Assembly: GCF_027859255.1 (NCBI RefSeq) | Contig: NZ_JAQHXR010000001.1 | Location: forward strand, 310,001-374,000 | Direction: 5' to 3' | Length of the DNA stretch: 64,000 nucleotides | DNA from: Helicobacter ibis | GTDB lineage: Bacteria; Campylobacterota; Campylobacteria; Campylobacterales; Helicobacteraceae | Part shown: positions 1-9,918 of the stretch, piece after piece | Numbering within the stretch: position 1 is the first letter of the stretch | Layout of the letters: the number at the start of each line of letters is the position of its first letter | The notes under the pieces: generated by a model | What the model was told of the DNA's origin: nothing | The model's input: the letters and a program-made list of their open reading frames with translations, nothing else | Database searches by the model: none | Position numbers and translations under genes: made by a program

Positions 1-372
1 CTTGCACATCATTTAGATGATGCAGCTGAAAGCTTTATGATGAATCTTACTTATAATGGTGCTTTGCGTTCTATGCCTCCTATTTATAAGGCTGAAAATG
101 GTTTGTATGTGATTCGCCCTTTGATTTTTGTCAGAGAGAGGCAGATTATTGACTTTATAGCTCATAATAACATATATATCGCACCTGATTGTAATTGTCC
201 TATCATGTGGCAAAATGACGATAAACGCCCATATGCTAGAGAAAATACAAAGCAAATGTTAAAAGACATGGAAGAGAAGAATCCGGATTTCTTTACATCT
301 TTAAAAGTTGCATTAAGCAATGTGCATTTAAATAGTCTTTTTGATGAGAGGTATTTAGATAAGCAAGATTAG
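1..372 (+). CDS. TtcA-like tRNA 2-thiocytidine synthetase, C-terminal part
   Basis: This gene is cut by the window edge: the frame is open from base 1 and 123 codons remain before TAG. The fragment begins with LAHHLDDAAE, matching the GHHxDD motif that follows the ATP-binding PP-loop in TtcA-family tRNA sulfurtransferases. A later PDCNCPIMW stretch is in the place of the C-terminal conserved cysteine that helps hold the Fe-S cluster in TtcA. Family members thiolate cytidine 32 of some tRNAs in the cytoplasm. The PP-loop itself (SGGKDS) would lie upstream and cannot be checked, so another PP-loop ATPase remains possible. The gene ends facing a decayed minus-strand gene, with a hairpin at its stop codon. 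Confidence 0.8.
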   Translation, partial: LAHHLDDAAESFMMNLTYNGALRSMPPIYKAENGLYVIRPLIFVRERQIIDFIAHNNIYIAPDCNCPIMWQNDDKRPYARENTKQMLKDMEEKNPDFFTSLKVALSNVHLNSLFDERYLDKQD

Positions 373-393
373 ATTAGATTATAAATCTTGCTT
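361..393. terminator. Hairpin between convergent genes
   Basis: A perfect 10-bp inverted repeat (361-370 AAGCAAGATT, 384-393 AATCTTGCTT) with a 13-nt loop spans the stop codon of the TtcA-like gene and abuts the end of the minus-strand pseudogene. It probably serves as a terminator for either strand. No clear U tract follows. Confidence 0.5.
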
Positions 394-394
394 G

Positions 395-1187
395 TTAGGA
401 GTTTAGCTCCATTTGGTTTAGGTGGTCTGTATCGCCAAAATGCTCATTTGTAAAATCGTTATCATAAAAGAAGTTTATGATTTTTAGTGGATAGCTTTTA
501 GAAATATTTATCAAATCATCAAATATAGAATCCAAACTTGGTATGTGGGATTTGTAATCTTCTCTTGCTGGTGGGATTACTATATATAAATTATGATTGT
601 TAATCATTGCTAATTCTTGCATTGCTATTAAAAATTGATTTTGCAAATTACCATATGATAGTTGCTTTAGATGTTGTGAGGCTCTTATCTTAGAATCTAT
701 GTTTGTATAAAGAATGTCCATAAAGATTCGCCAGTATAATTTAAAAACTCATTGTAGTTTTGTATTGTTAGACTTCTTTTATAGGCCACTAATTCATTTA
801 GGGAATATGAGTATATGTTATTTAGATATGATATTTATCTGCGGGGGGGGGGGCGATTTTATTATAGTCTATATTGTATAGTAATTTATATATTGTTGCA
901 AAGTGAGATTCGCCACTTAGAATTAAGTTGTATCCCGGAGAGAAGATAGAATAAAATAAGAAAATATTTTTTAGTAATGGCAAATTTTGCACATACAAAT
1001 ATAAACTATATGAAGTATATAAGTCTTGTGAAGTGTTTGCTAGGTTGAATCCATTATTATTTGGTATGTAGCCATAGTTGCCGTGCGATGAACCTAAGGC
1101 TAGATCTTGAATGTTTAGTGATCTTGCCATTAGGCTTATGTATTTTTTGTATTCTAACTTTAAATAGTCTATAAACCAATCTTGCAA
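395..1187 (-). pseudogene. Decayed SGNH-hydrolase-like gene with an 11-nt poly-G tract
   Basis: Two pieces of one gene can be read. The N-terminal piece (1187-822, 121 codons) contains LALGSSHGNYGY, a GxSHG motif like the nucleophile block of SGNH esterases. The C-terminal piece (721-395, 108 codons) contains DSKIRASQHLK and ends with FGDTDHLN, the usual Asp-x-x-His catalytic block. Between them a third frame is open from 834 to about 700 and reads plausible protein (YSLNELVAYKRSL). The coding strand has 11 C (843-853) just before the first break. In all three frames a stop comes within about 35 nt of the tract, so tract slippage alone cannot restore the gene. At least two further frame changes are needed, hence pseudogene. 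Substrate unknown; related Campylobacterota proteins are often in surface-glycan loci (recalled). Confidence 0.7.
843..853. repeat. Homopolymeric tract, 11 G
   Basis: Eleven consecutive G on the plus strand in an AT-rich setting, inside the decayed SGNH-like gene. Tracts of this length are classic slipped-strand phase-variation sites in Helicobacter and Campylobacter. Confidence 0.95.
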
Positions 1188-1212
1188 AAGTATCCTTTAT
1201 CAAAAGCAAAAA

Positions 1213-2418
1213 TTATATCATTTTTGATACTAATTCTTTTGTATCTCTTGCAATTACTAGTTCTTCATTTGTTGGGATTACACATACTTTGACTTTTGAA
1301 TCTTTTGTTGAAATTATCCCTTCTTTTCCTATTGTTTCCAAGTTTGCTTTCTCATCTAGTGTGATACCCAAAAACTCTAGTTGTGATACTATCTTTCCTC
1401 TTATGAATTTAGCATTCTCACCAACACCAGCACAGAAAGATATAGCATCAACTCCTTTTAGAGCGGCTGTATATGAACCTATATATTTTGCCACATGATA
1501 TGCAAATACTTCTCTAGCAAATCTAGCTTTTAAGTTGCCCTCTTCATCAGCAGCAAGTAAATCTCTAAAATCACTCGATAGTCCAGAAATACCAAGAACG
1601 CCCGATTTTTTGTTTAATATATTTGTTATTTCTGCTGTGCTTAGGTTTTCTTTTTGCGCTATGTAGTCTATTATTGCAGGGTCTATATCACCGCTTCTAG
1701 TTCCCATAACTAAGCCTTCTAGCGGAGTTAATCCCATGCTTGTATCTACACTTTTGCCATTTTCTATTGCACATATGCTTGAGCCATTGCCTAGATGACA
1801 TGTTATGATTTTAGAATTCTCAAGTGGAATCCCTAAGAATTCTGCTGTTCTTTTTGATACATAACTATGACTTGTTCCATGAAATCCGTATCTTCTTATT
1901 TTGTATTTTTCGTAGTATTCGTATGGAAGTCCATAAATATAAGCCTTAGGAGGCATAGTTTGATGAAATGCAGTATCAAAGACTGCAACCATTGGTGTAT
2001 TTGGCATTAAATGCTTACAAGCATTAATCCCTAGCAGATGTGCTGGGTTATGCAGTGGAGCAAGGTCAGAGCATTCTTGTATATGTCTTATTACTTCATC
2101 ATTTATTATTGCAGAATGAGTGAAGTGCTCTCCACCATGGACGATTCTATGACCTATGGCTTTTATCTCATTGAGTGAAGATATAATTCCAAATTCTTTA
2201 TTTACTAATGTCTCTAAAACCATTTTTACCGCTACTTCATGGTCTTTTAAGTCTGCATTTTTAACTATTTTTTCACCATTTTTTGGTTTGTAGTGAAATT
2301 TGCCATCATTTATACCTATCCTATCGCATAATCCACTTGCTAAGACTTCTTCTGTTTCTGTATTTATTAGTTGATATTTTAATGATGAGCTACCACAATT
2401 AATTACTAAGATATCCAT
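1213..2418 (-). CDS. ackA: Acetate kinase
   Basis: AckA interconverts acetate plus ATP with acetyl phosphate plus ADP in the cytoplasm. The 401-residue length is typical. The N-terminal INCGSSSLKYQL block (residues 6-17), GHRIVHGGEHF, VFDTAFHQTMP (catalytic Asp), YGFHGTSH, RSGDIDP and the C-terminal PTNEEL motif are all present. An AAGGAG Shine-Dalgarno sequence precedes the ATG. Only one base separates the stop of pta from this start, so the two genes form a translationally linked pta-ackA unit for acetate overflow or assimilation through acetyl phosphate. Confidence 0.97.
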   Translation of the reverse strand: MDILVINCGSSSLKYQLINTETEEVLASGLCDRIGINDGKFHYKPKNGEKIVKNADLKDHEVAVKMVLETLVNKEFGIISSLNEIKAIGHRIVHGGEHFTHSAIINDEVIRHIQECSDLAPLHNPAHLLGINACKHLMPNTPMVAVFDTAFHQTMPPKAYIYGLPYEYYEKYKIRRYGFHGTSHSYVSKRTAEFLGIPLENSKIITCHLGNGSSICAIENGKSVDTSMGLTPLEGLVMGTRSGDIDPAIIDYIAQKENLSTAEITNILNKKSGVLGISGLSSDFRDLLAADEEGNLKARFAREVFAYHVAKYIGSYTAALKGVDAISFCAGVGENAKFIRGKIVSQLEFLGITLDEKANLETIGKEGIISTKDSKVKVCVIPTNEELVIARDTKELVSKMI

Positions 2419-2419
2419 A

Positions 2420-3421
2420 TTATTCTCCTTGTTGTTGTGCTTGAAGTGCTGTTATTGCTATTACACCTATTATATCTTCGCTACTGCAACCTCTAGATAG
2501 GTCATTTACAGGTGCTGAAATCCCTTGTGTGATTGGTCCATAGCTTTCTGCATTTGCTAATCTTTGAACTAGTTTATAGCCTATGTTTCCAGCATCTAAG
2601 TCGGGGAATATAAGCACATTAGCATTTCCTGCTATGTTGCTATTTGGTGCTTTTGATTTTCCTATGCTTGGAACTATTGCTGCATCTAATTGGAATTCAC
2701 CATCGATTGCTAGATTTGGATTTAATTGTTGGGCTATTTGTGTTGCTTGTATTATTTTATCTATATCTGCATGTTTTGCACTTCCTTTTGTAGAGTGAGA
2801 TAACATAGCAACTATTGGTTCTTTATTTACTAGTGCTTTAAAGCTTTTTGCAGAATCTATTGCAATGCTTGCTAATTCTTCAGAGTTTGGATTTTGAACC
2901 AAACCGCAATCAGAGAATATAAAAACTCCATTTTCTCCATAGCTACAATTTGGCACAACCATAACAAAAAATGATGATACAAGTTTTGAATCTTTATTTG
3001 TGCCAAGTATTTGTAGTGATGCTCTTAAAACATCAGAAGTAGAGTTTATAGCTCCAGCTACCATGCCGTGTGCTACCTTACTTTTTACAAGTGCTACTCC
3101 AAAATATAGTGGATTTTCAAGTAACATAGCTCTTGCAGAACTCTCACTTAAGCCCTTGTGCCCTCTTAGTTTCACAAAAAGCTCGACATAAGAATCTAAC
3201 TCATCGCAAGATTTCGGATCAATAAAAGTTGCATTATCTAAATTTAGACCATTTGCTTTTGTTTTTATATCTCTTTCATCACCAACTAGAATGATATTAG
3301 CTATACCTTCATTTAAGACTTTGCTTGCAGCTTCAAGCATTCTTATATCATCAGATTCTGGTAGAACTATAGTCTTCTTATCTTTTTTGGCTTTATTTTT
3401 TATTTCATCTATAAACCCCAT
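2420..3421 (-). CDS. pta: Phosphate acetyltransferase
   Basis: Pta transfers acetyl between acetyl-CoA and acetyl phosphate, feeding the adjacent ackA. At 333 residues it is the short, single-domain (PTA_PTB) form with no DRTGG or N-terminal regulatory domains. Visible family blocks include KKTIVLPESDDIRMLEAA near the N-terminus, FIFSDCGLVQNPN in the middle, and GPITQGISAPVNDLSRGCS near the C-terminus. The ATG is preceded by AAGGAA. It is the first gene of the pta-ackA pair. Confidence 0.96.
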   Translation of the reverse strand: MGFIDEIKNKAKKDKKTIVLPESDDIRMLEAASKVLNEGIANIILVGDERDIKTKANGLNLDNATFIDPKSCDELDSYVELFVKLRGHKGLSESSARAMLLENPLYFGVALVKSKVAHGMVAGAINSTSDVLRASLQILGTNKDSKLVSSFFVMVVPNCSYGENGVFIFSDCGLVQNPNSEELASIAIDSAKSFKALVNKEPIVAMLSHSTKGSAKHADIDKIIQATQIAQQLNPNLAIDGEFQLDAAIVPSIGKSKAPNSNIAGNANVLIFPDLDAGNIGYKLVQRLANAESYGPITQGISAPVNDLSRGCSSEDIIGVIAITALQAQQQGE

Positions 3422-3478
3422 GTTTCTTCCTTAATGTTGAAGTTATAAACATTGTAAGATTTTATATGCAGGATTAGA

Positions 3479-3499
3479 TAAAAAATCGTAAAAAATCGT
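3479..3499. repeat. Short tandem repeat AAAAAATCGT, two copies
   Basis: The unit AAAAAATCGT occurs twice in direct tandem in the 87-nt gap between pgi and pta, followed by a further A/T-rich stretch. It lies just downstream of the pgi stop on the minus strand. It may be part of a termination or promoter region; I assign no function. Confidence 0.4.
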
Positions 3500-3508
3500 A
3501 AAAATTTT

Positions 3509-4774
3509 TTATGAATGTGTAAATTTTTCTCTTAGTATTTTTTTACCAAACTCAACTCCCGGTTGATTGTATGTATCAATTTGTAGCAAGATACCGACAC
3601 ATGAAGTTAGTAGTTCATAATAGAATATTAATTCTCCAGCACTGCTTTCTGTGAGGTTTGAGAGGGTAATTGAATCTACTGGGATATTTTGTGAGATTAT
3701 ACTTTCTTTGGTTGATATGCATTGTAGTTTTAACAATGTGTTAAATGAGGTTTTATTTACAAAATCTGTGCTTTCCATACCTTGTAGGCTAATATTTGGG
3801 ATAAATACTTGTTTTTGAGATAGTTTTTCTGCATTTAGGAATGTTATTGTTTTGTTTTTTTGTCCTTGCATTATTAATTGCAAGAAAGAATGTTGATCTA
3901 TGCTTCCTATTAGTGCAATTGGAGTTAAACCGCGTCTTTTTTTATACACATCTAATTTACCTAAAGATTCTCCCCATAGCTGAACATACCATGAGTTAAA
4001 ATGCCTAAAAACACTACTGTATGAAAATAGTACATTTATAGGGAAGTTATTTTCATTCTTGGCTAAGAATAGCGCCTTTTTTAGAATCTGATTATTTTTG
4101 TCGTTAAAAAAGTTATTGTTTGTAATGGCAGCACCATTTAGGATTGATTGTATGTTATATCCAAGTATGGCAAGAGGTAAAAGTCCTATTGTGCTAAGAA
4201 CAGAAAATCTACCGCCTATGTTTTGGTTTATAGCAAATGCTTTTATATTATTTGCATTACTCCATTTAAATAGTGGAGATTCATGATCGCTTATTGTTAG
4301 TAGATGTTTCTTTTTATTGTTATCTAGTAGTTTATACTTATGTAATACATATTTAAAAAGAGAAGTAGTTTCAATTGTTAGTCCAGATTTTGAAATAACA
4401 ATAAATAGCGTATCTTCATATTTGATTCTTCTTAGTTCTTTTTGAATCATTATTGGATCTGTGTGTTCTAGGAATCTTAATTTGATTTTTCTTCTATGTG
4501 GCTGATGAGATAGCATTGTATCTATTGCCTTAGTGCCTAGAGAGCTACCTCCTATGCCTATTATTATCATGTTTTTAATTGTGTCTATAAACGCTTTATT
4601 TTGTTCCATATATGAAAAGATTTCTTCATTTTTGGCAAAAGGTAAGTCATAGTATCCACTTATATGACTATTTTTTTCTATTAATACCTTTTGAAAGAAT
4701 AGTTCTGAATTCTCTGTGCTAAATAGATTTTGATTTTTTAGAAAATTAGTATAGTTATTATCCAATATAAGCAT
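3509..4774 (-). CDS. pgi: Glucose-6-phosphate isomerase
   Basis: Pgi interconverts glucose 6-phosphate and fructose 6-phosphate. At 421 residues it is the short form usual in Campylobacterota. Signature blocks are IIGIGGSSLGTKAID (about residue 72), ISKSGLTIETTSLF (sugar phosphate binding), GGRFSVLSTIGLLP, LWGESLGK (catalytic Glu), DQHSFLQLIMQG (His) and NQPGVEFGKKI (C-terminal catalytic Lys). Its ATG shares one base with the stop of gap (TAATG), which indicates translational coupling. The pair probably works in gluconeogenesis or central carbon flow. Confidence 0.95.
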   Translation of the reverse strand: MLILDNNYTNFLKNQNLFSTENSELFFQKVLIEKNSHISGYYDLPFAKNEEIFSYMEQNKAFIDTIKNMIIIGIGGSSLGTKAIDTMLSHQPHRRKIKLRFLEHTDPIMIQKELRRIKYEDTLFIVISKSGLTIETTSLFKYVLHKYKLLDNNKKKHLLTISDHESPLFKWSNANNIKAFAINQNIGGRFSVLSTIGLLPLAILGYNIQSILNGAAITNNNFFNDKNNQILKKALFLAKNENNFPINVLFSYSSVFRHFNSWYVQLWGESLGKLDVYKKRRGLTPIALIGSIDQHSFLQLIMQGQKNKTITFLNAEKLSQKQVFIPNISLQGMESTDFVNKTSFNTLLKLQCISTKESIISQNIPVDSITLSNLTESSAGELIFYYELLTSCVGILLQIDTYNQPGVEFGKKILREKFTHS

Positions 4775-5769
4775 TAATTGTAATTACCTACAAAAGAAGT
4801 CATATCTACTAATCTCGTAGAATACCCCCATTCATTGTCATACCATGCACATATTTTTATGTGATTTTCATCTGTAACAAATGTGCAATCAGGAATAAAA
4901 ATTGCACTATGTGGGAATCCTATAAAATCACCAGATACACGCTTTTCGTTATCGATTAACAAAATATCTTTCATCTCACCATTTGCATAATTTGCAAATA
5001 GTTCGTTTATGGATTCTTTAGTTATACCTTTTTCTACTATACAACTTAAATCAACCATGCTAACATCAGGCGTAGGAACTCTAATTGATAGTCCATTTAG
5101 TTTTCCTTGAAGCTCTGGTAATACAAGTCCAATAGCCTTTGCAGCCCCAGTTGAAGTTGGTATCATATTGAGTGCAGCTGCTCTTGCTCTTCTTAGGTCT
5201 TTATGTTTTGAATCTACTAGATTTTGATCATTTGTATAGCTGTGTATTGTTGTCATAAGTCCGCTTTTTATTTTTAGATTCAAATGTAGAATCTTCACTA
5301 GAGGTGCTAGAGCATTTGTGGTGCAACTTGCATTTGAAATTACTTCTTCTCCATTGTATGAGTTATGATTTACTCCATATACAAATGTAGGTGTATCTGT
5401 TGCTGGAGCTGATATGACCACCTTTTGTATTCCACCATATAGATGTGCTTTTGCCTTATTTATATCATTAAATGCACCGGTGCATTCGATAACTACCTTT
5501 GCACCATATGAGCCAAAATTTGTCTCTTTTATATCTCTAGTGCTTACTATTTTTATATTTTTTTGTTTTCCTATGTTTATTATATTTTCATCTATTTTTT
5601 TTATTTCGCTTCCTATATGAACAGAATCGTATTTTAATAAATGTATCAGTGTATCAGTTGGCATTGTTGTGTTTATTGCTACTAGATTGATATCATCTCT
5701 ATTTCCTAGAATCTTGCATACACATAGTCCAATTCTACCAGTTCCATTTACTGCAACTTTTAATGCCAT
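4774..5769 (-). CDS. gap: Type I glyceraldehyde-3-phosphate dehydrogenase, GapB-like
   Basis: GAPDH interconverts glyceraldehyde 3-phosphate and 1,3-bisphosphoglycerate. I start it at ATG 5769 (331 residues), preceded by GGAG at 6-nt spacing. An upstream in-frame ATG at 5802 lacks a ribosome site and would add 11 residues before the Rossmann strand. Seen: VAVNGTGRIGLC nucleotide fold, SNASCTTNAL with the catalytic Cys, and the IHSYTNDQ His. After the second strand it reads VAINTTMPTDT, where NAD-specific enzymes have IND with an Asp binding the adenosine ribose. Loss of that Asp resembles GapB or plastid NADP-using enzymes, which suggests an anabolic role. It overlaps pgi downstream by one base. 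Confidence 0.95.
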   Translation of the reverse strand: MALKVAVNGTGRIGLCVCKILGNRDDINLVAINTTMPTDTLIHLLKYDSVHIGSEIKKIDENIINIGKQKNIKIVSTRDIKETNFGSYGAKVVIECTGAFNDINKAKAHLYGGIQKVVISAPATDTPTFVYGVNHNSYNGEEVISNASCTTNALAPLVKILHLNLKIKSGLMTTIHSYTNDQNLVDSKHKDLRRARAAALNMIPTSTGAAKAIGLVLPELQGKLNGLSIRVPTPDVSMVDLSCIVEKGITKESINELFANYANGEMKDILLIDNEKRVSGDFIGFPHSAIFIPDCTFVTDENHIKICAWYDNEWGYSTRLVDMTSFVGNYN

Positions 5770-5800
5770 TAAGTTCTCCATAAAATAAATTTTTATGAGC

Positions 5801-5806
5801 ATTCTA
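5801..5806 (-). promoter_or_regulatory. Putative -10 of gap-pgi
   Basis: TAGAAT on the minus strand would give a leader of about 25 nt before the gap ATG. A 13-bp palindrome TCATTATTAATGA (5813-5825) lies just upstream and resembles the sequence over the sodB -10. Confidence 0.4.
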
Positions 5807-5881
5807 CAAAAATCATTATTAATGAGTATTAAAAATTACATAAAAATGTTATGAATGCTTGAAATCCCTTAAAATATGTGT

Positions 5882-5887
5882 TAGAAT
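5882..5887 (+). promoter_or_regulatory. Extended -10 of the HU gene
   Basis: TGT-TAGAAT (TG at 5879-5880) is an extended -10 typical of the housekeeping sigma factor in Helicobacter, which has a weak -35 requirement. It lies 33 nt before the HU ATG. A strong TGGAGGT ribosome site is at 5907-5913. Confidence 0.45.
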
Positions 5888-5919
5888 AGTGTGTATTTCA
5901 ATTTTATGGAGGTTCTAAA

Positions 5920-6207
5920 ATGAACAAGGCAGAATTTGTAGATTTAGTAAAAAAAGTAGGAGAATACGAGACTAAAAAAGAAGCTGAAAAAGCAATTAGC
6001 TCTTTTGTTCTAGCAGTTGAGAAAGCTCTAGCTAAAAAAGAAAGCATTGAATTAGTAGGATTTGGTAAATTTGAATCTGTTCTACAAAAAGGTAAAGAAG
6101 GAACAGTTCCGGGAACAAACAAAAAATATAAAACAAAAGATAAGTTCGTTCCTAAATTCAAAGCTGGTAAAGGTCTTAAAGACGCTGTTGCGGCTGCTAA
6201 AAAATAA
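5920..6207 (+). CDS. HU-family DNA-binding protein
   Basis: A 95-residue histone-like protein that bends and compacts DNA as a dimer. It begins MNKAEFVDLVKKVGEY and has the family core IELVGFGKFES followed by a basic beta arm and a Lys-rich C-terminal tail (DAVAAAKK). The arm reads KGKEGTVPGTNKKYKTKDKF, less Arg-rich than E. coli HU, as in Helicobacter HU. A TGGAGGT Shine-Dalgarno sequence sits 6 nt before the ATG. It is transcribed alone, divergent from gap, with tRNA-Arg 47 nt downstream. Confidence 0.95.
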   Translation: MNKAEFVDLVKKVGEYETKKEAEKAISSFVLAVEKALAKKESIELVGFGKFESVLQKGKEGTVPGTNKKYKTKDKFVPKFKAGKGLKDAVAAAKK

Positions 6208-6218
6208 CTTCTTCTTTT

Positions 6219-6236
6219 CCCCTTTTGGGGTTTCCT
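6219..6236 (+). terminator. Weak terminator after HU
   Basis: CCCC-TTTT-GGGG followed by TTTCCTT lies 11 nt after the HU stop. The stem is short, so this is a weak call. Confidence 0.35.
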
Positions 6237-6253
6237 TATTTTACTTTCATAAT

Positions 6254-6330
6254 GTCTTCGTAGCTCAGCTGGATAGAGCACACGATTCCTAATCGTGAGG
6301 TCATGCGTTCGAATCGCATCGTGGACACCA
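6254..6330 (+). tRNA. tRNA-Arg (anticodon CCT)
   Basis: A 77-nt cloverleaf with encoded CCA. The D arm is GCTC-AGCTGGATA-GAGC, the anticodon stem CACGA/TCGTG holds loop TTCCTAA (anticodon CCT), and the T arm is ATGCG-TTCGAAT-CGCAT. The acceptor arms GTCTTCG and CGTGGAC pair except for one T-T mismatch and one G-T pair. It reads AGG codons. Confidence 0.95.
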
Positions 6331-6405
6331 CTTAATTGTTCTTCATATTTGCCATGTGATTTTTTAGTATGTATTATGGGTTTATGTTGCTCTTTATAAG
6401 TATTG

Positions 6406-6440
6406 ATATTAGTATCCATATTCAATAGGGATACTAATAT
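6406..6440. terminator. 12-bp hairpin between tRNA-Arg and the ATPase gene
   Basis: Perfect inverted repeat: 6406-6417 (ATATTAGTATCC) pairs with 6429-6440, with an 11-nt loop. It lies just past the minus-strand ATPase stop and downstream of the plus-strand tRNA, so it may terminate either. There is no good U run. Confidence 0.5.
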
Positions 6441-6445
6441 GTGTG

Positions 6446-9097
6446 TTAATTTGTTTTTGAGAATAATTTCAAAGAGGTTCTAGTTATCTCACCTAGTATT
6501 ATTATACTACTGCTTATTAGTAAAATCTTGCACCATGTCTCTAGCTCTAGTGGCGTGGTATGAAATGCACTTCCTCCAAACTCAACAATTAAAACTTGCA
6601 TTGCAAAAGTAATTATAAATGTGCCTAGCATTATTTTGTTGCTACTTATGTCTTTAAAGATACTATTATTATTTAATTCTCTAGCATTAAAGGCATTAAA
6701 TAATGCAAATAACACAAATAAGGTGAATAAAGTTGTATTCCTCTCAGATTCTGCTACGCTTAAAAAGTTCGTAAAATACTGCAATAGACAAATTGTTGCT
6801 ATAAAGATTCCATTTACAAAAATAGAAATAAACATATTTTTTGTAATGATATTTGAATCTCTTTTTATTGGCTTTTCTTTGAGTAGATTTTTTGAAATTG
6901 GCTCTAAGCCTAAAGTCAAAGCCGGAGGTCCGTCCATTATTAGATTCACCCATAAAAGTTGCAATGCACTAAAAGGTGCTGTAAATCCCATAATAACTGC
7001 AGATAATACAATAATAACTGATGAGATATTAACGGTTAGCTGGAATTGTATGAATCTTTGGAAGTTTTTATAGATTCCACGCCCCCATTCTATCGCTTTG
7101 ACTATTGTTGAGAAGCTATCATTTAATAATACTATATCACTTGCCTCTTTTGATACTTCAGTCCCGCTAATGCCCATTGCAATACCGACATCTGCATTTC
7201 TTAATGCAGGAGCATCATTTATGCCATCTCCTGTTAGCGCTACCACATTTCCTTGTTCTTTTAGGGCATTTACTATTTGCATTTTTGTGCTCGGTGTTGA
7301 ACGAGCTATTATTTTTATCTTTGGTAATAGTTTGCATAGTTCATCATTGCTTAGAGATTCTAATTTACTTGCTTCAAAGACTAGATGGTCTTTATCTATT
7401 ATTTCTAGTTGCTTTCCTATTGCTTGTGCGGTTTTTAGATTATCTCCTGTTAGTATTTTTATGTCAATTCCTGCTTTCATGCAGTTTGCTATAGCTTCTT
7501 TTACATCATCTCTTAATGGATCTAAAATAGCCACAAAACCATCAAAAATCATATTAGATTCAAGTTCCTTTTTATTGCTATTATTAGTATCTAAAAACTT
7601 ATGAGAGAAAGCTAGAATCCTATATGCTTGTTCTTGTAGTTTTGATATTTTTTCTGTTATATTTTTTAAAGTTTTATTGTCCAAATTGCATTGTGCAAGT
7701 ATAACTTCTGGACTTCCTTTACTAAAGCATATTAAATTATTTTCTATTTTTACAACACTAGTCATATTTTTTGTTTGTGAAGAAAAAGGAAATGAATTTA
7801 CAATTTTATGCTTTTCTCGAATCTCTTTATAATCTATTCTATTTTTATGACTAAATACAAGCAATGCACATTCTGTTGGGTTACCTAAGAATTGATAGTT
7901 TGAATCTTTGTATGCAATATCTGCTGTTGAATTTAAGATGCAGTTTAATAACACATCTTCTATTTTATTGTGTATATATTCTTTCTCTACTGACATTTGG
8001 TTTTTTGTTAATGTCCCTGTTTTATCCGAACATATAATATTTACACAGCCTATAGTTTCACATGCTACTAGCTTTTTTACTAGAGCATTTTGTTTGGACA
8101 TTTTTACTATATTTAATGCAAGTAATACAGCGACTATTGTAGGAAGCCCTTCAGGCACTGAAGCTACTATTAAAACGATACTTGAGATAAATGCCTCTGT
8201 TATGTGCTCAATTAGAGTTTCAGTCTCTAAATCTCTAAAGCTTAAAAATATAACCTGTATTATAAAGGCTAGCAATGCTGCACTACCGCCAAGTATAGTT
8301 ATTTTATGACTTAGTTTTTTAAGTTTTTCTTGGAGTGGTGTAGTTGTTTTTGAGCTTGTATTTAATGCGCTTGCAATTTTACCAAACTCTGTATCATATC
8401 CAACAGCAATACACATGGCCTTTACACTTCCTTGAGTGATAAAGCAACCACTATATAGTATGTTTTTGTATGTATTAGTTGAATCTTGGCTTTCTAGTGT
8501 TTGACTTTTTGTTGTGTGTTTGCTCTCTCCAGTTAGACTTGATTCATCGCACATTACACCTAAGCTTTTAGATTCTATAATTCTGCAATCGGCAGGTATT
8601 TTATCGCCACTTTCAAGAATGATTATATCTCCAACTGCTAGTTCATTTTGTGGTTTTAGTGAGATTTCGCCATTTCTTATTGTTTTAATTAGATTTCCAT
8701 TGTTTATATCATTTAATGCTTCAAATGCTTTAGCGCTCCTATCTTCCATGATAATTGTGATGGCTATTGATAGAGATATTGCTATTAGGATCCCTATGCA
8801 TTCTAAGAAGTTGGAATTATTGTGATAAATGTATTCATATACATTGATACAAACTGCTAAAAAAGCAGCAAATAAAAGCAACAATATTATAGGTTCTGTT
8901 GTTGCATAAATTATTTTTTGAATAATTGATTGTTTTTTTACTCTATAAAATTCATTTTTGCCGAATCTTTGTTGATTCTTTAATGCTTGTTCAGAGCTTA
9001 GTCCATATTTTATGTTTGTATTGAAACTTTTGGATAATGATTCAATATCGGCTTGTGCTAATTCTTTGATATTAATATTATTTGTAGTATCGTTCAA
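6446..9097 (-). CDS. P2-type cation-transporting P-type ATPase (PMCA-like; Ca2+ or Mn2+ export)
   Basis: An inner-membrane ATP-driven cation pump of 883 residues, a usual length. Order seen: N-terminal cation ATPase domain (YGLSSEQALKNQQRFGKNEF), actuator loop with CDESSLTGES, membrane segment 4 with SVPEGLPTIVAVLLAL, phosphorylation site CSDKTGTLTKNQ, hinge VALTGDGINDAPALRNADVG, then the C-terminal membrane domain with LWVNLIMDGPPALTLGLEP. The VNLIMD in segment 6 is the PMCA form, implying one transport site. The start is TTG with AAGGGGGCT upstream; no ATG fits the family N-terminus better. The leader (9098-9268) resembles a manganese riboswitch, which would suggest Mn2+ export. Ca2+ cannot be excluded. 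Confidence 0.92.
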   Translation of the reverse strand: MNDTTNNINIKELAQADIESLSKSFNTNIKYGLSSEQALKNQQRFGKNEFYRVKKQSIIQKIIYATTEPIILLLLFAAFLAVCINVYEYIYHNNSNFLECIGILIAISLSIAITIIMEDRSAKAFEALNDINNGNLIKTIRNGEISLKPQNELAVGDIIILESGDKIPADCRIIESKSLGVMCDESSLTGESKHTTKSQTLESQDSTNTYKNILYSGCFITQGSVKAMCIAVGYDTEFGKIASALNTSSKTTTPLQEKLKKLSHKITILGGSAALLAFIIQVIFLSFRDLETETLIEHITEAFISSIVLIVASVPEGLPTIVAVLLALNIVKMSKQNALVKKLVACETIGCVNIICSDKTGTLTKNQMSVEKEYIHNKIEDVLLNCILNSTADIAYKDSNYQFLGNPTECALLVFSHKNRIDYKEIREKHKIVNSFPFSSQTKNMTSVVKIENNLICFSKGSPEVILAQCNLDNKTLKNITEKISKLQEQAYRILAFSHKFLDTNNSNKKELESNMIFDGFVAILDPLRDDVKEAIANCMKAGIDIKILTGDNLKTAQAIGKQLEIIDKDHLVFEASKLESLSNDELCKLLPKIKIIARSTPSTKMQIVNALKEQGNVVALTGDGINDAPALRNADVGIAMGISGTEVSKEASDIVLLNDSFSTIVKAIEWGRGIYKNFQRFIQFQLTVNISSVIIVLSAVIMGFTAPFSALQLLWVNLIMDGPPALTLGLEPISKNLLKEKPIKRDSNIITKNMFISIFVNGIFIATICLLQYFTNFLSVAESERNTTLFTLFVLFALFNAFNARELNNNSIFKDISSNKIMLGTFIITFAMQVLIVEFGGSAFHTTPLELETWCKILLISSSIIILGEITRTSLKLFSKTN

Positions 9098-9100
9098 TTT

Positions 9101-9109
9101 AGCCCCCTT
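9101..9109 (-). promoter_or_regulatory. Strong ribosome site for the ATPase TTG start
   Basis: AAGGGGGCT on the minus strand, 3 nt before the TTG at 9097. Immediately upstream, ATATAGCTA (9112-9120) can pair with TAGCTATAT in the leader, placing a hairpin next to this site. Confidence 0.6.
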
Positions 9110-9139
9110 ATTAGCTATATAGGATAAATTGAACTAAAC

Positions 9140-9177
9140 ACTCATATATAGCTATGTAAGTATAGTTATATATGAGT
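9140..9177 (-). promoter_or_regulatory. Leader hairpin of the ATPase gene
   Basis: A 15-bp stem with one mismatch (minus strand: ACTCATATATAACTA at 9177-9163, TAGCTATATATGAGT at 9154-9140) and an 8-nt loop. Its 5' arm can instead pair with ATATGAG in the aptamer-like element (9264-9258). Its 3' arm can instead pair with ATATAGCTA beside the ribosome site. Confidence 0.6.
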
Positions 9178-9182
9178 CTCAT

Positions 9183-9268
9183 AATTTAAGGCAAAACCAG
9201 ACTTAAGATTAAGTCAGTATGTTGATTTTACCACAAGAGTTTCTTGCTTACTACTCCCTCATATTGTT
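9183..9268 (-). promoter_or_regulatory. Putative yybP-ykoY-like (Mn2+) riboswitch aptamer
   Basis: Read on the minus strand: closing stem AATATGAGG (9266-9258) with CCTTAAATT (9191-9183), one mismatch and one G-U pair; then GGGAGTAG (9258-9251), like the conserved GGGGAGUAG loop of yybP-ykoY; a small hairpin CAAG-AAACT-CTTG; a long arm AAAATCA/TGGTTTT interrupted by ACATACT (the TCAACATACT block is 9225-9216) and capped by GACTTAA/TTAAGTC (9215-9200). The family is known upstream of Mn exporters and P-type ATPases, which fits. Deviations: GGG instead of GGGG, and no clear GCAAGRCC segment. Recognition is from memory, so this stays tentative. Confidence 0.5.
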
Positions 9269-9274
9269 GTGCGG

Positions 9275-9283
9275 ATTGTAGCA
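9275..9283 (-). promoter_or_regulatory. Extended -10 for the ATPase leader
   Basis: TGC-TACAAT on the minus strand, 9 nt beyond the sodB stop. It predicts a start near 9268 and a leader of about 170 nt, beginning just before the aptamer-like element. Confidence 0.5.
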
Positions 9284-9291
9284 AAATTAAA

Positions 9292-9918
9292 TTAAGAATG
9301 TAAAGATTTAATATAGAATTCAACAGAGCCCATACCTTCTTTTTTTGCCCATTCTAGTGCTTTTGATACAAACTCCCAATTAATATGAGAGAAGAATTTC
9401 TCTAAGTAATTTGGTCTAGCATTTCTATAATCTACATAGTATGCATGCTCCCATACATCTACTACTAAAATTGGTATCAGTCCATCTGTAACTGGTGTTT
9501 GTGCATTGCTTGTTTGTTTTATTTCTAGTTTTTTTGATGATGGATTATATACCACCCAGCACCAACCAGAACCAAATAAAGTTGTAGCAGATTGTAAAAA
9601 TGTTTCTTTAAACTTATCAAAGCTACCAAAACTTGAATCTATATCACTTTCTAACTCATCGCTTAAGCTTGTAGATTCAGGTGATACACAATCCCAGTAA
9701 AAGTCATGGTTGTAAATTTGTGCTGCGTTATTGAAGATTCCGCCTTGTGATTTTGTTAGAATCTCAAATAATGACGCATTTTCAAATTCTGTACCTTTTA
9801 CTAAGTTGTTTAGATTGTTTACGTATGTTTGATGATGTTTGCCATAATGGAACTCACAGGTTTCTTTGCTTATAAAATCTTTAATTTCACTAAAAGGTAA
9901 TTCTCTTAATTTAAACAT
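9292..9918 (-). CDS. sodB: Superoxide dismutase (Fe type)
   Basis: Converts superoxide to hydrogen peroxide and oxygen in the cytoplasm. The 208-residue length is typical of FeSOD. Metal ligands are visible: His24 in FHYGKHHQTY, the His of IYNHDFYWDC, and Asp and His of VDVWEHAYYVDYRN. The Gln/Gly pattern (NAAQIYNHDFYW with SGWCWVVY) fits Fe rather than Mn. The stretch GSGWCWVVYNPSSKKLEI is the usual C-terminal domain start. AAGGAG lies before the ATG. A palindrome over its -10 suggests metal-dependent repression. Confidence 0.96.
   Translation of the reverse strand: MFKLRELPFSEIKDFISKETCEFHYGKHHQTYVNNLNNLVKGTEFENASLFEILTKSQGGIFNNAAQIYNHDFYWDCVSPESTSLSDELESDIDSSFGSFDKFKETFLQSATTLFGSGWCWVVYNPSSKKLEIKQTSNAQTPVTDGLIPILVVDVWEHAYYVDYRNARPNYLEKFFSHINWEFVSKALEWAKKEGMGSVEFYIKSLHS

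Follow-up and report, generated by a model that had tools for sequence, protein, structure and literature searches.

The minus-strand leader of a P-type ATPase gene in Helicobacter ibis is most probably, at a rough probability of 0.87 judged from its sequence, a cis-acting Mn2+-sensing riboswitch, a variant of the yybP-ykoY class without the P4 helix that would control translation of the ATPase. It lies in the window (the whole stretch of 64,000 nucleotides that was analysed; all window coordinates below refer to the minus strand) between the superoxide dismutase gene sod (9918-9292) and the gene of a PMCA-type (P2B) cation ATPase (9097-6446; TTG start at 9097, 883 aa). A candidate sigma-70-like promoter (9275-9304), recognised by consensus match (TTTACA, 18 nt and TG-TACAAT as extended -10; 10/12 matches), has its upstream hexamer inside the 3' end of sod, and the promoter motif TGCTACAAT (9283-9275) quoted in an earlier note on this DNA is present. 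The sequence AAGGGGG at 9103-9109 provides a ribosome-binding site. The leader folds better than 200 of 200 dinucleotide shuffles (z -3.66), and the pair of motifs L1..L3 occurs once in the whole genome. The earlier note had taken the leader for a Mn2+-riboswitch type preceding a P-type ATPase, which is supported by the core motifs, by covariation and by the finding of mntP with a new covariance model.

The aptamer (9170-9264), of the three-way-junction Mn2+ riboswitch type, reads AUAUGAG-GGAGUA-GUAA..P2..AAUCA-ACAUACU-..UGGUU..UUAAA-UUAU-GAGA-CUCAUAU. Alignment and covariation delimit the switch helix P1.1, in which the 5' strand AUAUGAG (9258-9264) pairs with the 3' strand CUCAUAU (9170-9176), the core being AUGAG/CUCAU; the 3' strand is at the same time the 5' end of a downstream hairpin A. 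Between P1.1 and P1.2 (GUAA, 9248-9251, paired with UUAU, 9184-9181, likewise placed by alignment and covariation), GGAGUA of L1 (9252-9257, invariant in alignment A2; GGAGTAG at 9257-9251 in the DNA, as quoted before) stands opposite GAGA (9177-9180, conserved in A2) or AAGA, as in the yybP-ykoY core. The conserved A of L1 would make an A-minor contact, a role taken from PMC6754395. P2 is a hairpin, GCAAGAAACUCUUGU (9233-9247), of variable sequence with compensatory changes, and the P3 arm (GGUAAAAUCA / UGGUUUUGCC, 9190-9232) has an apical stem GACUUAA..UUAAGUC and the tip GACTTAATCTTAAGTC (9215-9200, present as quoted). P3 further contains the asymmetric bulge of that core, ACAUACU (L3, 9216-9222), a putative metal-binding site of which the first five bases are invariant in A2. 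It is identical to L3 of X. oryzae, where the third base (A48) contacts Mn2+ via its N7 and the L1 A docks on P3 (PMC6754395); the third base here corresponds to A48. All motifs of the earlier note, including a small hairpin at 9247-9233 and ACATACT at 9222-9216, were found at their minus-strand places. A conserved junction linker, UUAAA (9185-9189), occupies the place of P4 in canonical members. Since a short conserved linker joins P3 to P1.2 and P4 is absent in the 38 aligned sequences, the element is a three-way junction.

The element precedes the orthologous ATPase gene in 11 Helicobacter genomes, all of one genus, and its fold is supported by covariation. In a structure-fitted alignment, changes on both sides were found in 22 of 29 pairs, and none of 500 shuffles did as well. 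The covariation score was 0.514 versus 0.228 in shuffled alignments (sd 0.008), with 330 cells carrying both-side changes versus 90 in shuffles; paired cells made up 95.9%, versus 24-43% in slid controls. A structure-independent MAFFT alignment agreed (0.348 versus 0.208 shuffled, sd 0.009). The blocks TGAGGGAGTAGTA, CAACATA and ATTATGAGACTCATATATAAC are near-invariant in the Helicobacter leaders, while P2 and the P3 tip vary with compensation; the compensatory changes that the earlier note had thought worth seeking among orthologous leaders are thereby present in relatives.

The likeness to the yybP-ykoY class (RF00080; E. coli mntP, L. lactis yoaB/yybP, X. oryzae yebN) comprises L1 GGAGUA/GAGA, L3 ACAUACU, the order P1.1-L1-P1.2-P2-P3, P1.1 as switch helix, exporter genes downstream and a predicted ON response. 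P4 is present in the solved four-way structures, whereas here a short UUUUAAAUUA-type strand closes a three-way junction. In E. coli mntP, which reads CAUUUGG-GGAGUA-GCC..P2..GUGUCA-ACAUACU-..UGGCAC..P4..GGC-GAGA-CC with GGCGAGACC at the L1 3' side, a P4 hairpin stands where the window has its linker, and the loss of P4 is the main difference between the two. The window element also departs from the class in its occurrence in Helicobacter and in being unmatched by the RF00080 model. At the gathering cut-off of 45 bits or at E up to 10, RF00080 gave no match in the window, nor in the whole genome. Over 397 genomes of the phylum it did not match the element and found one canonical member elsewhere, and 0 of nine loci from a pattern scan reached the gathering score. 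The Rfam check proposed in the earlier note therefore failed on the leader, yet the E. coli mntP leader (L061:1968-2058) itself scores 44.9 bits, 0.1 bit under the cut-off. As this is a proven switch, the Rfam threshold misses real members and absence of a match is weak evidence. P4 takes up about half of the RF00080 model length, and the 3' strand of P1.1 lies outside the model.

A covariance model, R1, was built from 38 sequences; its E-values are rough. It matched the window at 9171-9264 with 80.9 bits (E 2e-17 in its own genome, the window sequence itself being among the training sequences). Two riboswitches outside its training set were recovered by R1: that of E. coli mntP, at E 1.4e-6 with 30.5 bits, and, at E 0.0021, a canonical RF00080 member from Campylobacterota. 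A canonical RF00080 Mn2+ riboswitch of 54.7 bits in another Campylobacterota genome (L046:1501-1632, G232) precedes a GDT1-like gene, recognisable by an AEIGDKTQ motif. R1 matches were obtained in 10 of 397 Campylobacterota genomes, every one within the same Helicobacter genus. The ATPase was found in 13 genomes of this genus, the window's own included and one on a truncated contig, and members of the genus without the ATPase gave no R1 match where searched. One Helicobacter orthologue (L008, G015; 62% identical) has no riboswitch and another gene closely upstream; this leader may have lost the element or never had it.

Outside Helicobacter the element is widespread in Clostridia. When 84,980 species genomes were scanned with a sequence pattern, 37 loci emerged, in Helicobacter (named species: pullorum, apodemus, mesocricetorum, valdiviensis, burdigaliensis, turcicus and sp. 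11-8110) and in many Clostridia; two of them (L078 and L086) were false and were dropped, the rest of the element being absent. A looser pattern, GGAGTAG..ACATACT, searched over 121 genomes of the family, gave scattered extra matches, which were treated as chance because the covariance model gave no support. R1 matches were found in 74 of 291 Clostridia genomes. In the same 291 genomes no RF00080 hit passed the cut-off; of the 21 that fell short of it, several lay at R1 loci. Against RF00080 the clostridial copies reached about 19-37 bits at best, and one match (22.1 bits, 1.9e-4) covered P3/L3 only. Downstream genes were assigned to classes by BLAST against representatives whose identity came from Pfam. 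The gene next to the 58 clostridial copies encodes MntP in 36 cases, a P-type ATPase in 13, a Na/Ca exchanger in four and an ABC ATPase in four, with one unassigned, which places the element upstream of Mn2+ exporter genes, as in the core class. An ABC-type ATP-binding protein downstream (L076, L123, L126, L127) is unusual for a Mn2+ switch. Directly behind mntP, at L072:2204-2311(-), L093:6112-6219(+) and L071:316-423(-), the element occurs again in a weaker form that R1 scores at 27-33 bits; in L072 and L093 this second copy directly precedes a P-type ATPase gene, so that each exporter seems separately switched. Two R1 matches on the same strand, about 50 bases apart (G444:C60:4834-4925 and 4978-5065), may constitute a tandem riboswitch.

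The ATPase controlled in the window belongs to the PMCA-type Ca2+ P-type ATPases (NCBIfam TIGR01517, 687 bits, cut-off 507; also Pfam). MntP and GDT1 exporters were both searched for in the window's genome and are absent, which leaves the ATPase as a good candidate Mn2+ exporter; judged by its family and genomic setting, it probably exports Mn2+ and possibly also Ca2+. The same aptamer class could accordingly respond to Ca2+, or to Ca2+ together with Mn2+, as its physiological signal and switch on a Ca2+/Mn2+ export pump. The family of the pump is named for Ca2+, Na/Ca exchangers follow 4 of the 58 clostridial copies, and for the mgtA riboswitch of S. pneumoniae tighter in vitro binding of Ca2+ than of Mn2+ is reported (PMC9495176). 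That riboswitch, also of the yybP-ykoY class, is described in PMC9495176 and PMC11434433 as a three-way junction that binds Ca2+ too, and mgtA as a Ca2+/Mn2+ ATPase under its control (PMC9495176 citing Martin 2019). By these descriptions it resembles the Helicobacter element in its three-way junction, its Ca2+/Mn2+ P-type ATPase and its activation by metal; mgtA is reported there to be activated in transcription, whereas translation is the level that we infer for Helicobacter. On the other side, MntP, whose family exports Mn2+, is encoded next to 36 of the 58 copies; the Mn2+-selective part of the solved members is L3 with its N7-donating A (PMC6754395); and mgtA is reported to be activated more strongly by Mn2+ in vitro. 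We therefore regard Ca2+ signalling as unlikely, while taking it seriously.

In the reading that we prefer, a Mn2+ switch of translation, the aptamer acts on three hairpins downstream. Hairpin A (CUCAUAUAUA / UAUAUAUGAG, 9141-9176; arms 9176-9163 and 9154-9141) competes with P1.1 and is the proposed ligand-free OFF structure. Hairpin B (UAGCUAUAU, 9154-9146 / AUAUAGCUA, 9120-9112; 9112-9154 in all) is proposed as the anti-sequestor of the ON state, and hairpin C (GUUCAAUUUAUCC, 9134-9122 / GGGGGCUAAAUUGAAC, 9107-9092; 9092-9134 in all) is predicted to cover the ribosome site and the start codon in the OFF state. CUCAUA is common to P1.1 and hairpin A in 11 of 11 Helicobacter leaders, so that the two helices are mutually exclusive. 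For this competition L. lactis provides a precedent, as its P1.1 3' segment partitions to the terminator without metal (PMC11087558). In the clostridial examples that were folded, hairpin A is an intrinsic terminator with a strong stem and a U-run, and 48 of 58 clostridial copies have a run of five T no more than 130 bases away. Since A is a terminator there, A means OFF, and since CUCAUA is common to P1.1 and A, metal must disfavour A.

Hairpin A of Helicobacter differs from the clostridial one in having no U-run. Instead, its 3' arm is complementary to a downstream stretch in 11 of 11 species, giving hairpin B, and in 10 of 11 species at most 2 of 500 shuffles were as good. The stretch just before the 3' arm of B is complementary to the Shine-Dalgarno sequence and start codon in 11 of 11, giving hairpin C. 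The arms of C change together between species, UUUAGCUUC, UUUGGCUC, CUAGCUUC, GCAUUUGGCUC and GUUCAAUUUAUCC each occurring with its own partner; for C alone, 0.8% to 16% of shuffles (up to 80 of 500) did as well. The ribosome-site hairpin of the window (9092-9107) reaches codons 2-3 of the ATPase (UAAAUUGAAC) and is longer than in most relatives. When the platform was folded with CUCAUA free, A and C were obtained, in the window as elsewhere, and when CUCAUA was removed, B was obtained in 8 of 11 species. In minimum-energy folding, sequestration of CUCAUA gave no flip to B in the window, L007 and L009. Hairpin C of the window is very stable, and its modelled ON state lies 10.7 kcal/mol above A and C with ligand energy excluded. 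Switching in these three leaders would thus have to be kinetic. Such a switch could operate because the strands of B are transcribed before the 3' strand of C; this is the least certain step.

We infer metal binding, the identity of the metal and the order of strand exchange from this arrangement. Metal would bind where L1 (GGAGUA/GAGA) meets the bulge of L3 (ACAUACU); this would close the switch helix P1.1 (AUAUGAG/CUCAUAU) and withdraw CUCAUA from hairpin A. The freed 3' arm of A would then pair forward with AUAUAGCUA to form hairpin B, whose loop would hold the anti-ribosome-site strand, so that C could not form and translation would be ON. In the absence of metal A would form, B could not, and C would cover the Shine-Dalgarno sequence and start codon (OFF); the net effect of Mn2+ would thus be to turn the gene ON.

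The earlier note had predicted the same sign, and this is supported, as are its mutually exclusive downstream hairpins; its wiring was different. There, metal closes the stem AATATGAGG/CCTTAAATT and A forms (ON), while otherwise B arises next to the ribosome site (OFF). The two strands are complementary in the window, but 78.2% of this stem was paired in the observed as in the shuffled leaders, it shows no covariation and it uses bases of P3. The pairing ATATGAG/CTCATAT holds as the P1.1 switch helix, whereas its assignment to the ligand-free state does not. Hairpin A can hardly be the ligand-bound ON form, being the terminator in Clostridia and needing the same CUCAUA as P1.1. B is assigned here to the ON state, and the third hairpin, C, which the two-hairpin design had missed, hides the ribosome site and explains sequestration directly. 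We consider that wiring very unlikely.

Slightly less credible still is a conserved leader that only resembles L1 and L3 and serves as a protein-binding site, RNA thermometer or attenuator instead of a metal switch. It would account for the lack of an Rfam match, but L1, L3, P1.1, P1.2, P2 and P3 all follow the canonical arrangement, covariation is strong, E. coli mntP is found by R1 although the model was trained without it, and the genes downstream are mostly Mn2+ exporters. Chance structure has a negligible probability: the spacer DNA is AT-rich, and its AU-rich palindromes would by themselves say little, yet conservation with compensatory changes across two phyla already refutes it.

Helicobacter ATPases share about 51-55% identity with the ATPase of clostridial L081 (Clostridium transplantifaecale), which bears the riboswitch, while that of the window shares 32-33% with homologues elsewhere in Campylobacterota. 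The L081 leader has the same aptamer consensus and P1.1-versus-A competition, its ATPase being 52% identical to that of the window; in clostridial copies, unlike in Helicobacter, a U-run after hairpin A makes it an intrinsic terminator. In a tree rebuilt without L095 (an unrelated long protein) and L015 (a doubtful long branch), the Helicobacter ATPases group with clostridial L081, L115, L119 and L142 (100/100), and a topology that keeps the Campylobacterota proteins in one group was rejected (p-AU 1e-7). This suggests, as far as protein and leader sequences can tell, that riboswitch and ATPase gene were transferred jointly between Clostridia and Helicobacter; as paralogues from several types of ATPase may be mixed among the homologues sampled, the tree supports transfer but proves neither transfer nor its direction. 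We lean towards a P4-less subclass of Mn2+ riboswitch, common in gut Clostridia and invisible to Rfam, that was carried with the ATPase into an enteric Helicobacter clade, where its output was rebuilt from a terminator into a three-hairpin translation relay.

The riboswitch class is already known, and the three-way junction has a precedent in the reports on mgtA. The features that appear to be new are the occurrence in Helicobacter, the extent of the subgroup that Rfam misses, and the relay platform. No paper on a manganese riboswitch in Helicobacter was found in the literature searched, which covered few subscription papers, in agreement with the earlier note, which named none.

Enteric Helicobacter thereby gains a probable manganese-sensing RNA that annotation pipelines miss, and a likely Mn2+ exporter is named for a species without MntP. 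With R1 matches in 74 Clostridia genomes and none over the Rfam cut-off, Mn2+ riboswitches probably have a considerably wider range than is known. The same switch helix underlies the clostridial terminator and the Helicobacter relay, which together offer a testable case of an aptamer that would have moved between phyla with a changed output.
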